Part shown: in pieces, positions 8,105 through 61,103 of the stretch
How positions within the stretch are numbered: the stretch's first letter is position 1
Layout of the letters: each line of letters begins with the position of its first letter
Assembly: GCF_008326305.1 (NCBI RefSeq)
Contig: NZ_BIXY01000038.1
Location: 1-61,103 of the forward strand
Origin: Dictyobacter arantiisoli
GTDB taxonomy: Bacteria > Chloroflexota > Ktedonobacteria > Ktedonobacterales > Ktedonobacteraceae
DNA length: 61,103 nucleotides
Reading direction: 5' to 3'
Position numbers and translations under genes: made by a program
The notes under the pieces: generated by a model
The model's database searches: none
What the model saw: only the letters and a program-made list of their open reading frames with translations
Told to the model about the DNA's origin: nothing

Positions 8105-8135
8105 CTGCCGTATACAGAAGAAACTGGCCATACAA

Positions 8136-8201
8136 GGAAGAAGAGGAAAGGATCGGACCGGGAAAATAACATTTCCTGATCTGATCTTTTCCTCTTCTTC
8201 C
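8136..8201. terminator. Long hairpin between convergent genes, probable terminator
   Basis: A 19-bp purine/pyrimidine stem (8136-8154 with 8183-8201; one position is a G-T pair) encloses a 28-base loop. It lies between the 3' ends at 8104 and 8252. No long T-run follows, so intrinsic termination is probable but not certain. Confidence 0.6.
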
Positions 8202-8251
8202 TCTACATAAGAGACACACAGCAACTATCAAAGACAGTCACCAGGATATTT

Positions 8252-12625: not shown

Positions 12626-12650
12626 ATACATCAGGAAAAAGCATAGAGCA

Positions 12651-12696
12651 AGAGAGGGACTCCGGCTACTCGCTAGAGTAGCTGGAGTCCCTCTCT
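12651..12696. terminator. Bidirectional terminator
   Basis: A 21-bp stem with one mismatch (12651-12671 with 12676-12696) around a 4-base loop, between convergent genes. It is the strongest hairpin of this type in the window. Confidence 0.85.
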
Positions 12697-12771
12697 TCAT
12701 TCATTCACACCCGCATGTTCCTTACCTCTCATCTTTGTGTCACCAACATGCAATCAGTGGCAGTGGAGAGA

Positions 12772-23893: not shown

Positions 23894-23941
23894 TATTCAC
23901 TTACCCCACGATGAGCATCCTGCTACCTTTTTTCTCAGAAA

Positions 23942-24136
23942 GTGTCAGACTCCCGTGGTCTCCACGGTCTCTGTGCATGAGTTTTCGCACCTATGGTGCT
24001 CAAAAATCTTTTGAGTGTGTGATGTCGGAAAAGTTCGAAGAACTTTTCCGACATCACACACTCAAAAGGGCGCAGGCGCGCACGCGCCTGCCAGCAAGTG
24101 AGCAGCAAGGTCCCGATGGTATTAGGAGTCTGACAC
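23942..24136. repeat. Palindromic repeat family 1, copy A
   Basis: A 195-base element. Perfect 12-bp end repeats (GTGTCAGACTCC, 23942-23953, and its complement at 24125-24136) enclose a 30-base conserved block at 23975-24004 that contains GCACCTATGGTGC. This is followed by a perfect 29-bp stem with a 3-base loop (24008-24036 with 24040-24068) and a GC-rich hairpin (GCAGGCGCG with CGCGCCTGC, 24072-24091). Copy C near 60.8 kb has the same parts in the same order. No coding capacity is seen. Confidence 0.9.
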
Positions 24137-24362
24137 ATTCTCATCTTGAGTTTGTACATTTTTAGGCTTTTGAGCCTGCGAAAAAGGGCGCGTGCGCCGC
24201 ATTTTCGAGCTCACGTTTTCAAAATTGTACAAAGTCCAACTCATACATGAGTCATCCCGGACTTTGATACTGTTGGGAAACCCTGTTACGAAACATCTTT
24301 TGAGCGTACTCACTCCAAATAGATGAGCACCGCGCAAGGGTTTCCCAACGGTATCGGACTTT
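24137..24362. repeat. Nested inverted repeats next to copy A
   Basis: TTTGTACA (24151-24158) and TGTACAAA (24226-24233) enclose two small hairpins. After that, a 19-base inverted repeat with one mismatch (24266-24284 with 24337-24355), built around GTTGGGAAACCCT, encloses a 52-base centre. The pattern resembles copy A, with outer arms around a structured core. I see no gene in 23894-24766. Confidence 0.75.
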
Positions 24363-24766: not shown

Positions 24767-26083
24767 ATGACCAGAGAATTCAATCAGCAACGTCGAGATG
24801 GCTCACGTCCGCCATTTCGCAATTCATCCTCCGGCCGCAATGGAGAAGAAAGAACTTCACATCCAGCCCGGCCTCGCCTCAACCGAGAAACAGTAGATCG
24901 CGCCTGGGAGAATGGAGCCACACGTACACACGCGGATTACCATCCACGCAGCTCCCATGGGCCATCCCAAGCCCCGCGCAGAAATAATCAGTCCGGTGGA
25001 TATTCCTCCCAATATACACCAGGTGGTCACAAACCTTATGGACAGGGCCAGAGCGGCAATCGTTCTGAGCGCCCTTATGGCGATCAACAGGGTCCACGTT
25101 CTCGTCCCTTCAATGGTTCACGTACTAATAATGAGGGTTCCGAGAGACAGGGTTTTGACAACCGTCGCCAATTTTCAAATAACGCCGATCATGGTTACTC
25201 CCCACGAGGACGTCAGGAAGGTCGACCTCCCTATGAGCGCAATTCCTCACCACGAGGACCGCAAGCAGGCAGACCTCCATTCGAGCGCGGTTCTGCACCA
25301 CGGGGACCTCAAGCAGGCAGACCGCCTTTTGAGCACAATTCCGGTCCAAGGGGACCACAAGCACATCGACCTCTTTACAGGCGAAACGCTTCCCTGAAAG
25401 GGGGGCAAGATGGGAAACCAACATTCGAACGTACTACATTTGAGCGCGATGCTGCTCCTCGTGCTCCGAGAGTAAATACCAATCCAGCCGGTCGACGTGG
25501 AGCCGCACGTCACGAGCGTCCAGAACGTGAGTTTCAGCGTGGGCGCGACTTCCGTTCACGGAATAGTGAGGCAGGTAGCAATGTAGTGCGACCACCCGAT
25601 CCAACTAATCCTCGCTGGCTCAGCCGTCCTGCTGTACGGCAGGCACGCGATGATCAACGTCAGCAAGAAATTACCGAGCAGTTTGAAGGTGACTACGAAA
25701 GCTTCGATATAACGGAAACCTCCAGACCGTCTCAAACATATGAGCCGAAACGCTCTACACGTTCCGCAGCCAGAGAAGAAAAGCCTGAGCGTCACGTCAC
25801 TCGTCTCGAAGATGGGCGTGTCTTGAAAGGCAGTCGTCCGGAACAACGCAAAAATGCTCAATTCTGGACCGACATCAGTAGTAATACTGAAAAACTGGTT
25901 GAGTCAGTACACGTCCCAGAAACCTCGACGGATGAGGAAACCAACTCATCGACAGGGAAACGACCATCACGGCGTCCCGTCGTCCGCCGTGGTAAGAAGA
26001 CTGGTGCCGATGGAGAAGTGAAAAAGCCTCGTACACGAGGTCCTCGCCCCTCACAAAAAGGATATAAATGGCCCGACGCATAA
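24767..26083 (+). CDS. Arg/Gly/Pro-rich repeat protein, disordered
   Basis: 438 residues from ATG 24767, which has GAAAGGAAAC upstream; the frame extends 33 codons further up without a better site. The protein is strongly basic and rich in Arg, Pro, Gly, Asn, Ser and Gln. Five tandem 16-residue repeats (consensus SPRGPQAGRPPFERNS) span 25199-25438. The C-terminal third has mixed charge (RSAAREEKPERHVTRL) and ends in a Lys/Arg cluster. There is no signal peptide or membrane segment. Low-complexity RG/RGG proteins of this sort often bind RNA and can form condensates; here that is inference from composition. The neighbouring genes do not define a pathway. A perfect hairpin follows the stop. Confidence 0.8.
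   Translation: MTREFNQQRRDGSRPPFRNSSSGRNGEERTSHPARPRLNRETVDRAWENGATRTHADYHPRSSHGPSQAPRRNNQSGGYSSQYTPGGHKPYGQGQSGNRSERPYGDQQGPRSRPFNGSRTNNEGSERQGFDNRRQFSNNADHGYSPRGRQEGRPPYERNSSPRGPQAGRPPFERGSAPRGPQAGRPPFEHNSGPRGPQAHRPLYRRNASLKGGQDGKPTFERTTFERDAAPRAPRVNTNPAGRRGAARHERPEREFQRGRDFRSRNSEAGSNVVRPPDPTNPRWLSRPAVRQARDDQRQQEITEQFEGDYESFDITETSRPSQTYEPKRSTRSAAREEKPERHVTRLEDGRVLKGSRPEQRKNAQFWTDISSNTEKLVESVHVPETSTDEETNSSTGKRPSRRPVVRRGKKTGADGEVKKPRTRGPRPSQKGYKWPDA
25199..25438 (+). repeat. Five tandem 48-bp repeats inside the Arg-rich gene
   Basis: Units at 25199, 25247, 25295, 25343 and 25391, each 48 bases, in frame. Units 2 and 3 are the most alike; units 1, 4 and 5 have drifted. The number of units may vary between strains. 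Confidence 0.9.
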
Positions 26084-32700: not shown

Positions 32701-32735
32701 CAAACACTTTGATATTTTGTCAATCAAAGTGTTTG
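32701..32735 (+). terminator. Terminator of the PLP-enzyme gene
   Basis: CAAACACTTTGAT (32701-32713) pairs perfectly with ATCAAAGTGTTTG (32723-32735), followed by TTTCC. Confidence 0.85.
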
Positions 32736-32785
32736 TTTCCTATGAGCTTAAGGCATATAAATTTTAGCACCCGAGGCGCACAAAA

Positions 32786-32893
32786 CAATGTTAGAGCGCG
32801 GTGCACAAAACATTCGAATGTTTTGTGCACCGCGCTCTAACATTGAGACCCAAAGAGTTCCTCGAAAATATGGCGCAGGCGCTCACGCGCCTG
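32786..32893. repeat. Perfect 60-bp palindrome plus GC hairpin (family 1-like, copy B)
   Basis: Bases 32786-32845 form a perfect 60-bp palindrome without a spacer, centred on TTCGAA. It is followed by a GC hairpin (CAGGCGC, TCAC, GCGCCTG at 32876-32893) that closely matches the GC hairpin of copy A. The palindrome arms do not match those of copies A and C. It lies between convergent genes and may also act as a terminator. Confidence 0.85.
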
Positions 32894-32900
32894 ACTTTGA

Positions 32901-36250: not shown

Positions 36251-36417
36251 ATCTTTTCTCCATTCCATGATAAATAATAATCACATTAGTACTACGTATG
36301 GATGAAAAGATGAGATACATATATGAGATTAAAAAGAGGTGTTAAAGGACATATTATAGCTGCCAGGAGAGCGTTTGAAATCATACAACAAGCGCTCCTC
36401 TGACAGGATTGATACGC

Positions 36418-38826
36418 TTAGTCGCGGATGCTACGAGCAGGCAACGGACGCACCAGTGGACTCATCACGGGCAGGGCTTTCTTGCCACGCGGCAAGCGCT
36501 GACGTACCAGATAGTCCGGCGCATTCGCCAGATCATTTTTCTCCAACGTCACGTCTTCACCAAAGCGATTGAAGAACGAGAGCTCAAAGTTGGGGGTTTC
36601 ACCCAGGGCACCGTGAGGGCACACCTCGACACAATCACCACAGAAGATACAGCGATCCAGCGCAAAGGAGTAGCGAGCCAGTTCGCGCTCGGCCATCATC
36701 AGTGAACCAGTTGGGCAGACCTGCACACAGGCTCCACAGGAGACACAGTCAGTATCATGCAAGCTGACGTTGAATGGCGTCGAGACAATCGTATCGAAGC
36801 CCTTACCAAACATGCCATAGCAGTCTGGACCAATCACATCGTGACAGACACGCACACACTGGGTACAGTTGATACACTTGTTGGGATCGCGCAAGATGAA
36901 GCTGTGCGAGAGATCCAGATCGTAGTCATGGTAGTCGCTGGGTTCTCCATCGTGGAAGCGGTTATCCGCCAGACCATGCTCGATACTGTACTTCTGCAGA
37001 TCACACTGACCGGCAGCCGGACAGGCGCATTGCAGACAACGGGATGCCTCACGCTGAGCCTGCTCTTTCAAGTAGCCCATCTCGATCAACCCAAAGCTCT
37101 TCTCGCGCTGCTCATAAGGGAGCATCGGCATCTTGACTTTCGGCTCAACCGGCTTGTAGGGAACGATGTCGAAGAGATCAGGGCGGCGCTCTTCCAGTTC
37201 CAGACGGCGGGCGACCTCGTTCATGTCCTCACCCATCAGATAGGAATGGATGGAACGTGCGCCTAATTTTCCCTGGGCCACACATTCAATAATCGTACTG
37301 GCACCCAGCTGAGCATCACCGCCAGCGAAAACGCCTTCACGATCTGACATAAAGTTATGGGGATTGGTCTGGATGGTTTTCCACTTCGTCCATTTAATAC
37401 CCGACGACTCGTTAATCACATTGGTATCCACGGCCTGACCAACAGCCGGAATGACTGTGTTACAGGCAATTGTAAATTCGGTACCGGGAACTGGTACGGG
37501 ACGGCGGCGACCGCTGGCATCAGGCTCTCCTTGTTTGGTACGCTGATATTCTACACCCACCACCTTCCCATTCTCCACCACAACACGCTGCTGAGCTGCT
37601 CGCACCTGGAGATGGGTTCCTTCTGCAATACCATCCTCAACTTCCTCCAATGTCGCCGTCATATCTGCCCGGGTACGATAATAGGTTGTGTGGACTTTAG
37701 CGCCCAGACGTAGCGAGGTACGGGTACAGTCAAAGGTAGTAAAACCACCGCCAATCACAATAACCTCATCCCCTTCTTTCACGGGAACCGGCTTGCCCTC
37801 AACTTTATCATAGAGGAAACGGATAGCATTCACCACCCCCTCTGCATCCTCACCGGGCACACGCATCGACTTACTGGTCCAACAGCCGATAGCCAGATAG
37901 ACCGCATCAAAGCCCTGTGCAAACAGATCATCGATAGTAAAGTCGCGACCCAGCTTAACGTTGCTCTGCAATTCCACACCAAGCTGCCAGACATGCTCAA
38001 GTTCGCGATCCATCATATCCTTTGGCAAACGATACTCAGGAATACCATAGCGTAGCATACCACCAGCCTGGGGTTGCATATCAAAAATCTTGCAAGCGTG
38101 ACCACGCAAAGCCAGATAGTATGCACAGGACAAACCTGCGGGCCCAGCCCCTACAATCGCCACATTCTTACCCGTAGGCGCATCCTGGACGTAAGGAATA
38201 GGGGGATCAAGCAGGCAAGTCTCAGCCGCGTGACCGTGCATACGGCAGATGGCAATTTCTTCATCCACCAGCGTACGACGGCAAGCCTTCTGACAGGGCG
38301 CGGGACAGGTCAAACCCAGGATAAAGGGAAAAGGTAACACCTCTTTTACCAGGCGGGCTGCTTCCTTCATCTCACCCTGGGCAATCAACTCCAGATAGCC
38401 TGGAATATCAATATGTGTCGGGCAATCCACCTGGCAGGGAGGCTGACAGTAGGCATTGTGGTCAGAGAGCATCATTTCCAGATTCGTGCGGCGAATATGA
38501 AATAGCTCATCAGAATTCGTCGTTACCACCATGCCTGGCTCAGCAGGAGTATTACAGGAAGGCAGAGGACGCTCAGCGCCTTCGACGTGAACCAGACACA
38601 TACGACAAGCGGAGGTTGGCTCCAACTTTTCGTCATTGCACAAATTAGGAATATCAGTAATTCCATTGTCAATCGCCACGCTCAAAATGGTTTGGTTTTC
38701 ATGAGCAACCATAGTCTTACCATTGATAATAACGGTAAAACTGGGATGGCCCAGTTCATCACGTACCATTGGTTCAGTAGCATTTTGAGGGCTGAGGGAG
38801 AACGTATCGCGGGTCACGATAGTCAT
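36418..38826 (-). CDS. NuoG/GltD-like flavo-iron-sulfur oxidoreductase, copy A
   Basis: 802 residues. Cys63, Cys74, Cys77 and Cys91 form a NuoG-type [2Fe-2S] site. Cys127, Cys131, Cys135, Cys174, Cys178, Cys182 and Cys194 lie in a GltD/NfnB-type N-terminal cluster region. FAD binds GAGPAG (226-231) and NAD(P) a second site at IGGG (358-361). After CLQCACPAAGQC come three ferredoxin-type motifs: CINCTQCVRVC, CVSCGACVQVC and CIFCGDCVEVC. The fold order is NuoG head, glutamate-synthase small-subunit core and polyferredoxin tail. It is a near-duplicate of the gene at 39061 and separated from it by a terminator, so it probably has its own promoter. The electron partner is unknown; context suggests the NuoB/NuoF-like proteins. 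The ATG has AGAGG. Confidence 0.85.
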   Translation of the reverse strand: MTIVTRDTFSLSPQNATEPMVRDELGHPSFTVIINGKTMVAHENQTILSVAIDNGITDIPNLCNDEKLEPTSACRMCLVHVEGAERPLPSCNTPAEPGMVVTTNSDELFHIRRTNLEMMLSDHNAYCQPPCQVDCPTHIDIPGYLELIAQGEMKEAARLVKEVLPFPFILGLTCPAPCQKACRRTLVDEEIAICRMHGHAAETCLLDPPIPYVQDAPTGKNVAIVGAGPAGLSCAYYLALRGHACKIFDMQPQAGGMLRYGIPEYRLPKDMMDRELEHVWQLGVELQSNVKLGRDFTIDDLFAQGFDAVYLAIGCWTSKSMRVPGEDAEGVVNAIRFLYDKVEGKPVPVKEGDEVIVIGGGFTTFDCTRTSLRLGAKVHTTYYRTRADMTATLEEVEDGIAEGTHLQVRAAQQRVVVENGKVVGVEYQRTKQGEPDASGRRRPVPVPGTEFTIACNTVIPAVGQAVDTNVINESSGIKWTKWKTIQTNPHNFMSDREGVFAGGDAQLGASTIIECVAQGKLGARSIHSYLMGEDMNEVARRLELEERRPDLFDIVPYKPVEPKVKMPMLPYEQREKSFGLIEMGYLKEQAQREASRCLQCACPAAGQCDLQKYSIEHGLADNRFHDGEPSDYHDYDLDLSHSFILRDPNKCINCTQCVRVCHDVIGPDCYGMFGKGFDTIVSTPFNVSLHDTDCVSCGACVQVCPTGSLMMAERELARYSFALDRCIFCGDCVEVCPHGALGETPNFELSFFNRFGEDVTLEKNDLANAPDYLVRQRLPRGKKALPVMSPLVRPLPARSIRD

Positions 38827-39004
38827 AATACTGCCTCTTTAACGTTATTCCTTAACAGCAGGAAAAACTTTTTGTTACAATGTCAAATACGTTAAATCTC
38901 CCTCTATATTACTCCAGTGATTGCCAGGAGTAAAGACATTGAAAAAAGTAATCTTTCTATATACATGCTCGATTTACAGTAAGGCAACTTCCTGTGACAT
39001 ATAA

Positions 39005-39035
39005 AAAGCCGGACCTCATAACGAGGCCCGGCTTT
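39005..39035 (-). terminator. Terminator between the two 802-residue genes
   Basis: AAAGCCGGACCTC pairs, with one mismatch, with GAGGCCCGGCTTT. On the minus strand it is followed by TTTTT. It stands just after the stop of copy B, so most transcripts from the nuoB operon should end before copy A. Confidence 0.85.
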
Positions 39036-39060
39036 CTGGAGCATATTTCCTGTTAGATGC

Positions 39061-41469
39061 TTAGTCGCGGATGCTACGAGCAGGCAACGGACGCACCAGT
39101 GGACTCATCACGGGCAGGGCTTTCTTGCCACGCGGCAAGCGCTGACGTACCAGATAGTCCGGCGCATTCGCCAGGTCATTTTTCTCCAACGTCACATCTT
39201 CACCAAAGCGATTGAAGAACGAGAGCTCAAAGTTGGGGGTTTCACCCAGGGCACCGTGAGGGCACACCTCGACACAATCACCACAGAAGATACAGCGATC
39301 CAGTGCAAAGGAGTAGCGAGCCAGTTCGCGCTCGGCCATCATCAGTGAACCAGTCGGGCAGACCTGCACACAGGCTCCACAGGAGACACAGTCAGTATCA
39401 TGCAAGCTGACGTTGAATGGCGTCGAGACAATCGTATCGAAGCCCTTACCAAACATGCCATAGCAGTCTGGACCAATCACATCGTGACAGACGCGCACAC
39501 ACTGGGTACAGTTGATACACTTGTTGGGATCGCGCAAGATGAAGCTGTGCGAGAGATCCAGATCGTAATCATGGTAGTCGCTGGGCTCACCATCGTGGAA
39601 ACGGTTGTCCGCCAGACCATGCTCGATACTGTACTTCTGCAAATCACACTGTCCAGCAGCCGGGCAGGCGCACTGCAGACAACGGGATGCCTCACGCTGG
39701 GCCTGCTCTTTCAAGTAGCCCATCTCGATCAAACCAAAGCTCTTCTCGCGCTGCTCGTAAGGGAGCATCGGCATCTTCACCTTGGGCTCGACCGGCTTGT
39801 AGGGAACGATGTCGAAGAGATCAGGGCGGCGCTCTTCCAGTTCCAGACGGCGCGCAACCTCGTTCATGTCCTCACCCATCAAGTAGGAATGGATGGAACG
39901 TGCATTGAGCTTACCCTGTGCGACACCTTCAATAATGGTCTTCGCACCCATCTGACAATCACCACCAGCGAAAACGCCTTCGCGATCTGACATAAAGTTA
40001 TGGGGATTGGTCTGGATGGTTTTCCACTTCGTCCATTTGATGCCAGAAGCATCATCAAGCACGCTGGTATCCACAGCCTGACCAATAGCCGGGATAACGG
40101 TATCGCAGTTCAGCACAAACTCAGAACCGGGAACTGGTACGGGACGGCGGCGACCGCTGGCATCAGGCTCTCCCAATTTATTGCGCTGGAACTCAACACC
40201 GGTCACACGACCGTTCTCCGAAACGACACGCGTCTGACTGACATACAGCTGCAGATGTGTACCTTCTGCTTCACCGTCTTCAACCTCTTCAGTTGTCGCG
40301 CCCATCTCGGTACGACCACGACGATACATCGTGTGGACTTTGGCACCCAGACGTAACGAGGTACGGGTACAGTCAAAGGCAGTGAAACCACCACCAATCA
40401 CAATAACCTCATCACCGTCTTTCACAGGCACTGGCTTACCTTCAACTTTGTCACCCAGATAACGAATGGCGTTCACCACGCCCTCTGCATCCTCACCAGG
40501 AACACGCAGATCATTACTGGTCCAACAGCCGATAGCCAGATAGACCGCATCAAAGCCCTGTGCAAACAGATCATCGATAGTAAAGTCGCGACCCAGTTTG
40601 ACATTGGCCTGGAAATCAATACCCATATCCCACAACTGCGCGAACTCGCGATCCATCATATCCTTTGGCAAACGATACTCAGGAATACCATAGCGCAGCA
40701 TACCACCAGCCTGGGGTTGCATGTCAAAAATCTTACAGTAGTGACCACGCATAGCCAGATAGAAGGCAGCAGTCATACCAGAAGGGCCACCACCAACAAC
40801 AGCAACTTTTTTACCAGTTGGCGGATCTTGCACGTAAGGCAAAGGAGGATCAAGCAGGCAAGTCTCAGCCGCGTGACCGTGCATACGACAGATAGCGATT
40901 TCTTCATCTACCAGCGTACGACGGCAAGCCTTCTGACAGGGCGCGGGACAGGTCAAACCCAGTGTGAAAGGGAAAGGCAACACCTCTTTTACCAGACGAG
41001 CCGCTTCCTTCATCTCACCCTGGGCAATCAACTCCAGATAGCCTGGAATATCAATATGTGTCGGGCAATCCACCTGGCAGGGAGGCTGACAGTAGGCATT
41101 GTGGTCAGAGAGCATCATTTCCAGATTCGTGCGGCGAATATGAAATAGCTCATCAGAATTCGTCGTTACCACCATGCCTGGTTCAGCAGGAGTATTACAG
41201 GAAGGCAGAGGACGCTCAGCGCCTTCGACGTGAACCAGACACATACGACAAGCGGAGGTTGGCTCCAACTTTTCGTCATTACACAAATTTGGGATATCCG
41301 AAATCCCATTATCAATCGCCACGCTCAAGATGGTCTGGCCTTCATAAGCCTGTAACGTCTTGCCATCGACGGTCAGCGTAAAGCTAGGATGCCCATGCTC
41401 ATTACGCACCATCGGAGGCTGCGCCTCTTGAGAGGTGAGAAAGAAATTATCTCGGATCGATATAGCCAT
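39061..41469 (-). CDS. NuoG/GltD-like flavo-iron-sulfur oxidoreductase, copy B
   Basis: 802 residues, the same length and domain order as copy A. It differs in the first 55 residues and through the FAD/NAD(P) core (about 210-545), for example GGGPSGMTAAFYLAMRGH against GAGPAGLSCAYYLALRGH. It is identical in protein sequence over about residues 58-168 and from about 545 to the end. It follows the NuoF-like gene by about 60 bases on the same strand and is the last gene of that operon. All cysteines of copy A are kept. The ATG has AGAGGAAG. Two copies with different flavin cores but the same cluster domains might pair the same partners with different nucleotide substrates; this is inference. Confidence 0.85.
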   Translation of the reverse strand: MAISIRDNFFLTSQEAQPPMVRNEHGHPSFTLTVDGKTLQAYEGQTILSVAIDNGISDIPNLCNDEKLEPTSACRMCLVHVEGAERPLPSCNTPAEPGMVVTTNSDELFHIRRTNLEMMLSDHNAYCQPPCQVDCPTHIDIPGYLELIAQGEMKEAARLVKEVLPFPFTLGLTCPAPCQKACRRTLVDEEIAICRMHGHAAETCLLDPPLPYVQDPPTGKKVAVVGGGPSGMTAAFYLAMRGHYCKIFDMQPQAGGMLRYGIPEYRLPKDMMDREFAQLWDMGIDFQANVKLGRDFTIDDLFAQGFDAVYLAIGCWTSNDLRVPGEDAEGVVNAIRYLGDKVEGKPVPVKDGDEVIVIGGGFTAFDCTRTSLRLGAKVHTMYRRGRTEMGATTEEVEDGEAEGTHLQLYVSQTRVVSENGRVTGVEFQRNKLGEPDASGRRRPVPVPGSEFVLNCDTVIPAIGQAVDTSVLDDASGIKWTKWKTIQTNPHNFMSDREGVFAGGDCQMGAKTIIEGVAQGKLNARSIHSYLMGEDMNEVARRLELEERRPDLFDIVPYKPVEPKVKMPMLPYEQREKSFGLIEMGYLKEQAQREASRCLQCACPAAGQCDLQKYSIEHGLADNRFHDGEPSDYHDYDLDLSHSFILRDPNKCINCTQCVRVCHDVIGPDCYGMFGKGFDTIVSTPFNVSLHDTDCVSCGACVQVCPTGSLMMAERELARYSFALDRCIFCGDCVEVCPHGALGETPNFELSFFNRFGEDVTLEKNDLANAPDYLVRQRLPRGKKALPVMSPLVRPLPARSIRD

Positions 41470-60366: not shown

Positions 60367-60784
60367 TGCTTCCTGCCAGGTCTTGCAGACATATTCCTCA
60401 ATCAAACCTTCATTGGTAAACCAATGTTCATGACAAAGACATATTATCCATTAAGCATGCTGATTTAGGCTTATAAATACTTTAAATCCTTATCACACAT
60501 ATGGATATACTAAGCGCAGAATAAACAAGGCCGCTATTGAATTGCACTCCACAAACAAGCACAACCTAAATATGCCATAAGTCCCTATTTACCTGCAAAA
60601 TATCTGTTTGCCATTGACACAAAGTATACCACATCAATGCTAGTATGGGTCAATCCTAAACAGGCTCCAAAATCACCGAGCCGAAAAATTTCATCTTCTA
60701 TTCATTCAGAAGCAATCAGGCCAACAGGAGCTTTAACACAAGAAAGCTTGTGATAGCTATTAACTTTTTTCCCTCTTCTTACAA

Positions 60785-60971
60785 AGTGTTTGATTCCCAT
60801 TGTCTTCGCCATCCTGGCGCATGAGTTTTCGCACCAATGGTGCTCAAACAGATTTTTATTATGTGATGTAGAAAAGGTTCTTCGAACCTTTTCTACATCA
60901 CATAATAAAAAGGGCGCAGGCGCGCCTGCGCCTGCCAGCAGGTATCCCGATGGTGATGGGAATCAAACACT
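60785..60971. repeat. Palindromic repeat family 1, copy C
   Basis: A 187-base element. Perfect 16-bp end repeats (AGTGTTTGATTCCCAT, 60785-60800, and its complement, 60956-60971) enclose a 30-base block at 60819-60848 that matches copy A at 29 of 30 positions. A perfect 28-bp stem with a 3-base loop (60853-60880 with 60884-60911) and a GC-rich hairpin follow. Compared with copy A, the 28-bp stems differ at six positions, and each change has its partner on the other arm. Confidence 0.9.
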
Positions 60972-60980
60972 ATCTTAGAG

Positions 60981-61103
60981 AGTGTTTGATTCCCATCACG
61001 ATGGGTATGCAGGCGCGAGCTTGGTCAAGAGGCGATGGCAGGAGGCGATTCTGATAAACGCCTCCGAACTTTCGGGCAAGCCCTCGTGATCGCGAGAGAG
61101 CCG
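60981..61103. repeat. Start of a further, inverted family 1-related element
   Basis: AGTGTTTGATTCCCATCAC (60981-60999) is the exact reverse complement of 60953-60971, nine bases away. This looks like the end of a second element facing copy C. It continues with GCAGGCGCG, and a hairpin (GGAGGCG with CGCCTCC near 61041-61065) follows before the window ends. No gene is seen here. Confidence 0.65.

Follow-up and report, generated by a model that had tools for sequence, protein, structure and literature searches.

Two intergenic palindromic elements of the Dictyobacter arantiisoli genome, here named copies A and C, are copies of a MITE whose family counts at least 204 members in that genome. Both lie on the stretch of DNA analysed here, which covers positions 1 to 61,103 of contig NZ_BIXY01000038.1 (61,103 nucleotides; the window). 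Our reading of the family as a whole, which we consider probable, is that of a high-copy MITE served in trans by an IS5 transposase, the hairpins of which are kept perfect by template switching. The relevant features of the window are given below, each with the evidence on which it was placed.

23935..23937, no strand: left TSD of copy A, TCA (sequence, TSD statistics)
23938..24140, plus strand: copy A, a 203-bp MITE (sequence, covariance model)
23938..23957, plus strand: left TIR of copy A, GAAAGTGTCAGACTCCCGTG (sequence)
23979..24004, plus strand: conserved block and short hairpin hp1 of copy A, GAGTTTTCGCACC-TAT-GGTGCTCAAA (block search, alignment)
24008..24068, plus strand: long perfect hairpin hp2 of copy A, 29 bp, loop GAA (inverted-repeat search, folding)
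24072..24091, plus strand: GC hairpin of copy A, GCAGGCGC-GCAC-GCGCCTGC (sequence, folding)
24124..24140, minus strand: right TIR of copy A, reading GAATGTGTCAGACTCCT on the minus strand (TIR survey of copies)
24141..24143, no strand: right TSD of copy A, TCA (sequence)
~32725-32895, plus strand: copy B, a diverged or degenerate relative (inverted-repeat search, covariance model E 3.6e-12)
60779..60781, no strand: left TSD of copy C, TTA (sequence)
60782..60974, plus strand: copy C, a 193-bp MITE (sequence, covariance model)
60823..60848, plus strand: hp1 block of copy C (block search)
60853..60911, plus strand: long perfect hairpin hp2 of copy C, 28 bp, loop TTC (inverted-repeat search, folding)
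60916..60935, plus strand: GC hairpin of copy C (sequence, folding)
60975..60977, no strand: TSD TTA common to copy C and the abutting IS5 element (sequence)
60978..61103, minus strand: right end of the autonomous IS5-family element, truncated where the contig stops, with TIR GAGAGTGTTTGATTCCCAT (contig-end comparison, inverted-repeat search)
60996..61103, minus strand: C-terminal end (35 aa) of the IS5 transposase, RLSRDHEGLPESSEAFIRIASCHRLLTKLAPAYPS followed by a stop (translation; agrees with the D. kobayashii transposase at its C-terminus)

An earlier note on the window had described A and C as two members of one palindrome family, and this description was confirmed: both are present, their parts follow in the order described, and the 30-base block is identical at 29 of 30 positions. 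Likewise, the inner 28-bp stems, TTTTGAGTGTGTGATGTCGGAAAAGTTC in copy A and TTTTTATTATGTGATGTAGAAAAGGTTC in copy C, differ at six positions, all of which (6/6) are matched by a change on the opposite arm, leaving the arms 100% complementary. The boundaries given by that note were corrected to 23938-24140 for A, with TCA duplicated on both sides, and 60782-60974 for C, with TTA on both sides. A further property absent from it is that the TTC loop of copy C is the reverse complement of the GAA loop of copy A. The block occurs in the window only at the A and C places, with 0.00 matches expected in shuffled sequence, and the two hairpin regions fold with z-scores of -13.0 (A) and -14.2 (C), which together exclude a chance origin of the likeness. 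Copy B consists of a left TIR, an hp1-like hairpin, a 30-bp loopless perfect palindrome at 32786-32845 and a GC hairpin; its right end is not recognisable.

The window holds other repeats as well. Beside copy A, positions 24146-24240 form a second MITE-like repeat with ends GAGTTTGTACATTTT…AAAATTGTACAAAGTC and an internal GC hairpin GGGCGCGTGCGCC, which also flanks other copies of the family (L002, L007, L009-L011, L015). A 19-bp inverted repeat (GATACTGTTGGGAAACCCT / AGGGTTTCCCAACGGTATC, 52 bp apart) at 24266-24355 is possibly a third small mobile element. Long near-perfect intergenic palindromes with arms of 31 and 22 bp lie at 8135-8202 and 12650-12697 and are unrelated in sequence to the MITE family. 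In coding DNA, an 802-aa gene is present within 36416-41469 as two tandem copies (36418-38826 and 39061-41469, with 99% identity in a comparison of 300 nt), and a 48-bp repeat occurs four times in tandem within a 471-aa ORF (25195-25386).

Further copies, the absence of which would have spoken against the earlier note, are abundant in the genome. A 26-base form of the block, allowing up to 3 mismatches, gave 204 matches in the 7.2 Mb, 256-contig assembly and none with a reversed-pattern control; 204 is a lower bound, since the pattern misses copies that are diverged or broken in the block. We retrieved 189 distinct copies for analysis, a sample that follows the conserved block. The element measures 193-203 bp (copy C 193, copy A 203) with a median of 203 bp over the family, and its order is a 3-bp TSD, TIR, linker, hp1, a 4-base spacer, hp2, GC hairpin, TIR and TSD, with no transposase gene. 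The short, invariant hp1, which is the "30-base block", has the family form GAGTTTTCGCACC-NNN-GGTGCTCAAA, and the GC hairpin has the form GCAGGCGC-n4-GCGCCTGC. Between them stands hp2, a 25-30 bp stem of variable sequence with a loop of usually 3 bases. The TIRs follow the pattern GA/CAnAGTGT…TCCCAT (sequence GA/CAnAGTGTTTGATTCCCAT; variants GTGTCAGCCTCCC and GTGTCGGACTCCC), and copies carry GTGTTTGATTCCC or GTGTCAGMCTCCC at both ends, with some hybrids. The earlier proposal that the end repeats are compensated like the stems therefore does not always hold, because several copies have two different TIR types.

The copies are dispersed and mostly intergenic, with 15 of 145 element centres falling within an ORF of at least 150 aa as against 61% of random points. 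Identical 3-bp flanks were found at 51 of the 101 copies with both ends recognised (mean 10.5 and maximum 24 over 2000 shuffles), and 42 of these 51 duplications are TNA. Copies often abut head to tail with one TNA common to both neighbours, which suggests that elements frequently insert into the target duplication at the end of another. Abutting MITE copies and IS5 element with a single shared TNA are seen at window positions 60975-60978 and at L073, L030 and L207. Orthologous or paralogous empty sites were sought, and the matches, mostly tandem MITE copies, contained no clean one. Placement relative to gene orientation is not consistent in Dictyobacter, and the copies from a second genus, g8, that could be used for this comparison are few. 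The idea of a non-autonomous element, which the earlier note had raised, is supported by the TIRs, the 3-bp TSDs, the dispersal of some 200 copies that lie mostly between genes, and an IS5-family element whose ends match.

Across the shared TTA, copy C adjoins a second sequence, which bears the same TIR and continues past the end of the window. The same 126 bp terminates five other contigs, which identifies the IS5 element as a collapsed repeat in this assembly, and the other IS terminus ends at least 3 contigs. Translation of these termini yields a transposase C-terminus (RLSRDHEGLPESSEAFI…) and N-terminus (…MTGKRPAY), the middle being absent from the assembly. The IS5 transposases located by Pfam in this genome were rejected as partners because they lack these TIRs, as is expected if the actual partner has been collapsed at contig breaks. 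D. kobayashii has an intact-looking counterpart (L103, 1501-2577), with TIR GAATGTGTCTGACTCCCATC, TSD TGA and two overlapping ORFs matching PF13340, PF01609/PF13586 and NF033580, the transposase halves scoring 118 and 81 bits against the last. The candidate for the transposase that the earlier note had suggested looking for is an IS5-family one with matching ends, found in D. kobayashii and at contig ends of D. arantiisoli itself. It resembles the IS5 family, IS1031-like group (NF033580), in the TIRs that it shares with the MITE, in DUF4096 plus DDE_Tnp_1, in two overlapping ORFs and in a 3-bp TNA duplication; MITE and IS5 element have sequence in common only at their ends (~32 bp right, ~18 bp left). 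By the TNA duplication (42 of the 51 identical TSDs) and the GAG-type ends, which mark the IS1031 group in ISfinder, the partner may be IS1031-like, but the ends vary among GAG, GAA, GAT and CAA. Judging from the shared ends, an IS5-family transposase apparently moves the MITE, and this transposase is probably the one that does so.

The pairing of the hp2 arms was examined in a gapless alignment of 102 copies picked by hairpin centre and not by perfection. Both sides had changed at 23 of the 28 hp2 pairs, and over the whole structure 415 cells were changed on both sides versus 10 on one side, with 99.1% paired. The covariation score was 0.307, compared with 0.091 for shuffled and at most 0.064 for slid partners. 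Between copies, the 5' arms differ at an average of 22% of positions; within a copy, the two arms mismatch at 0.57%. Among the retrieved copies, 123 of 149 hp2 stems are perfect and 36 of 4215 pairs are mismatched, a mismatch rate that is biased downward by a locating algorithm that rewards pairing, although the centre-selected alignment gives the same picture; about 40 of the 189 were left out of the stem statistics because their hairpins are short, deleted or cut off at a contig end. The full compensation claimed earlier is thus nearly complete and not absolute, and the uncompensated changes that could have spoken against it exist but are rare (0.85% of pairs). A minimum spanning tree of 67 distinct perfect arms contains 133 paired changes, an upper bound on events, since copies recombine and any tally of independent events is inflated by this.

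What keeps the arms alike? The earlier note had left two answers, selection of the folded form or a process that copies one arm into the other. Under the former, the long hairpin would be a selected RNA structure, either a small RNA or an element of mRNA stability or processing such as an RNase III substrate, and paired changes would arise stepwise under selection. Very strong folding (z -13 and -14), very strong covariation and the retention of the two-hairpin arrangement in five Dictyobacter genomes, with a weaker pair in genus g8, are all in keeping with it. However, one-sided, G·U-type intermediates are nearly absent (10 versus 415 cells). In RNA, G·U pairs and A·C does not. Residual G·T and A·C mismatches number 8 and 9 in D. 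arantiisoli, 5 and 5 in its relatives and 4 and 5 in g8, a pooled ~17 versus 19 with no G·U excess (at most 17 of 36 G·T: P = 0.012 under an expected 2:1 excess, P = 0.87 against equality), and this equality rules out strong RNA-specific wobble tolerance only among the remaining, possibly young, mismatches. Selection on pairing also does not account for the loop inversions described below. No Rfam family scored above its gathering score, the sub-threshold hairpin matches being generic miRNA hairpins, and the suggestion of a structured regulator found no positive evidence beyond folding and covariation. We regard selection on an RNA as unlikely to be the explanation. Because the stem retains a loose sequence consensus, e.g. 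TTTTTAnTnTGTG, an additional constraint on its sequence or structure may act. A bidirectional intrinsic terminator would likewise be intergenic and palindromic, but on either strand the stem opens with a run of T and closes with a run of A, the reverse of a terminator U-tail, and a terminator search gave weak matches only at the GC hairpin and at a 5-bp stem; this function is highly improbable.

The loops bear more directly on a copying process. The common 3-base hp2 loops (n = 125) come as pairs of reverse complements: GAA 35 and TTC 25, TAT 14 and ATA 14, ACA 16 and TGT 10. For 123 of the 125 copies the reverse-complement loop is also in the set, versus 2 of 125 with a reversed-only partner; complement-only matches number 60 and stem mainly from mirror-symmetric loops (TAT, ACA), the complement of which equals the reverse complement. 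Among the 14 stem sequences found in at least 2 copies, both loop orientations occur in 10 and only some other second loop in none (0/14). The GC-hairpin loops flip too (GCAA 20, TTGC 5), and the relatives D. aurantiacus and D. kobayashii flip other loops: ATCC 7 and GGAT 6, GAAA 3 and TTTC 3, ATCA and TGAT. Since these two genomes are assembled in two contigs, an assembly artefact was rejected as the source of the flips, and short-read assembly error is an unlikely one.

Compensation could instead reflect whole-hairpin gene conversion, in which complete hairpins are exchanged as cassettes among dispersed copies. The same stem type is indeed found on more than one backbone, and a single copy can combine different TIR types. 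Recombination between copies is also evident at L079, where the hairpin has unlike (chimeric) arms, and at L213 (1557-1675), where two left MITE halves with different TIR types are fused head to head via the hairpin; both chimeras break at the hairpin and so show it to be, in addition, a place where copies are joined. Nevertheless, gene conversion spreads perfect hairpins and neither creates new ones nor inverts loops on identical stems. It is likely a contributor and not the source, and as the explanation of compensation it is quite unlikely.

The copying alternative of the earlier note is favoured by the loop inversions and the missing G·U excess, and template switching is favoured over RNA selection because near-perfect compensation, loop inversions and the lack of a G·U excess occur together. 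Template switching between the arms of inverted repeats is documented to homogenise the arms and, together with this, to invert the spacer (PMC8604942), and it has also been put forward to account for paired changes and inverted loops in RNA hairpins (PMC8794818). We infer that the copying process is template switching rather than the work of another enzyme. In this model, an IS5-family transposase would recognise the terminal repeats and insert the MITE in trans at TNA sites of intergenic DNA. During replication, DNA polymerase would switch template inside the palindrome, and the variable hairpin would thereby stay perfect. Intramolecular fold-back would copy one arm into the other, such that an arm mutation would be lost or else be copied across to give a "compensatory" pair, while intermolecular switching between strands would invert the loop and leave the stem unchanged.

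The hairpins reach beyond the IS5 ends. The block itself is confined to three Dictyobacter genomes among those searched. A covariance model of hp1 plus hp2, counted per genome in at most 91 candidates, matches D. arantiisoli, all four other Dictyobacter genomes (4/4), four g8 genomes and, with one match, a further genus, and has none in the remaining searched genomes of the class. In one Dictyobacter genome (G026) several copies have IS5-like ends. In g8, with genomes of 10.7-13.7 Mb, hp1 reads TTCGCGCC-TGC-GGCGCTCA; three of the genomes carry 94-133 copies each and a fourth carries 2. A long hairpin follows hp1 in 23 of 30 sampled copies, 15 of the 23 being perfect. The g8 loci L314-L343 (genomes G031-G034) show the homologous short hairpin and then a mostly perfect long hairpin of 25-32 bp and variable sequence. 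No inverted repeats above chance were found around the sampled g8 hairpins. Because the pair occurs there without TIRs, it either predates the IS5 ends or can exist apart from them, and by this comparison the hairpin core would not simply be an IS5 derivative. It is possible, if doubtful, that hp1 and the variable hp2 are an old independent Ktedonobacterales repeat module that predates the IS5 ends and has its own mechanism of spreading or of regenerating hairpins; behind this reading are g8 long stems that are nearly all different yet paired, and TIR-less copies numbering ~94-133 in each of three g8 genomes.

The g8 form also resembles REP/BIME sequences and their RAYTs (PMC3733652, PMC2817692), with which the family shares high-copy intergenic palindromes. 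On this view a Y1 (RAYT-type) transposase would have moved the palindromes in single-stranded form, the IS5 ends having been acquired secondarily, and the number and palindromy of the ~94-133 TIR-less g8 copies of hp1 plus long hairpin are REP-like. However, an association of the g8 repeats with Y1 transposases was not found, the hp1 motif being at 0 of the 30 Y1 loci examined, and g8 genome G033 has 94 copies and no Y1 match. The D. arantiisoli copies moreover have TIRs and TSDs, features that REPs lack. This origin is very unlikely, and the preferred reading remains an IS5-served MITE maintained by template switching.

Template switching itself is already known. The open-licence literature searched held no description of this MITE family, of a mobile family recording template switching in more than 100 replicates, or of a hairpin pair found again in a second genus where IS5-like ends are lacking. 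Changes that are paired across a stem are normally taken as proof of a functional RNA. The family amounts to a natural replicate experiment, with more than 100 hairpins per genome in which near-complete covariation stands alongside signs that DNA was copied, namely the inverted loops and the lack of a G·U bias. It calls for caution in covariation-based RNA discovery in repeat families, and offers a system for measuring template-switch rates in bacteria.

Among known systems, bacterial IS-derived MITEs (reviewed in PMC10969869) are alike in a length of ~200 bp, TIRs shared with an IS, a short TSD, no transposase gene, high copy number and intergenic position; unlike them, the present family has a long perfect hairpin that differs in sequence among copies while its pairing is kept. 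Minute hairpin-loop inversions between plastid genes (e.g. PMC2903610) are similar as palindrome-associated inversions within species, but concern single loci and no mobile element. There is also a likeness to template-switch inverted repeats in yeast genes (PMC8604942) and RNA hairpins (PMC8794818), which share the perfect arms, the paired changes, the reverse-complemented loops and even the same GAA/TTC pair. Those cases are single events at unique loci, whereas Dictyobacter presents a dispersed family with more than 100 replicate hairpins.
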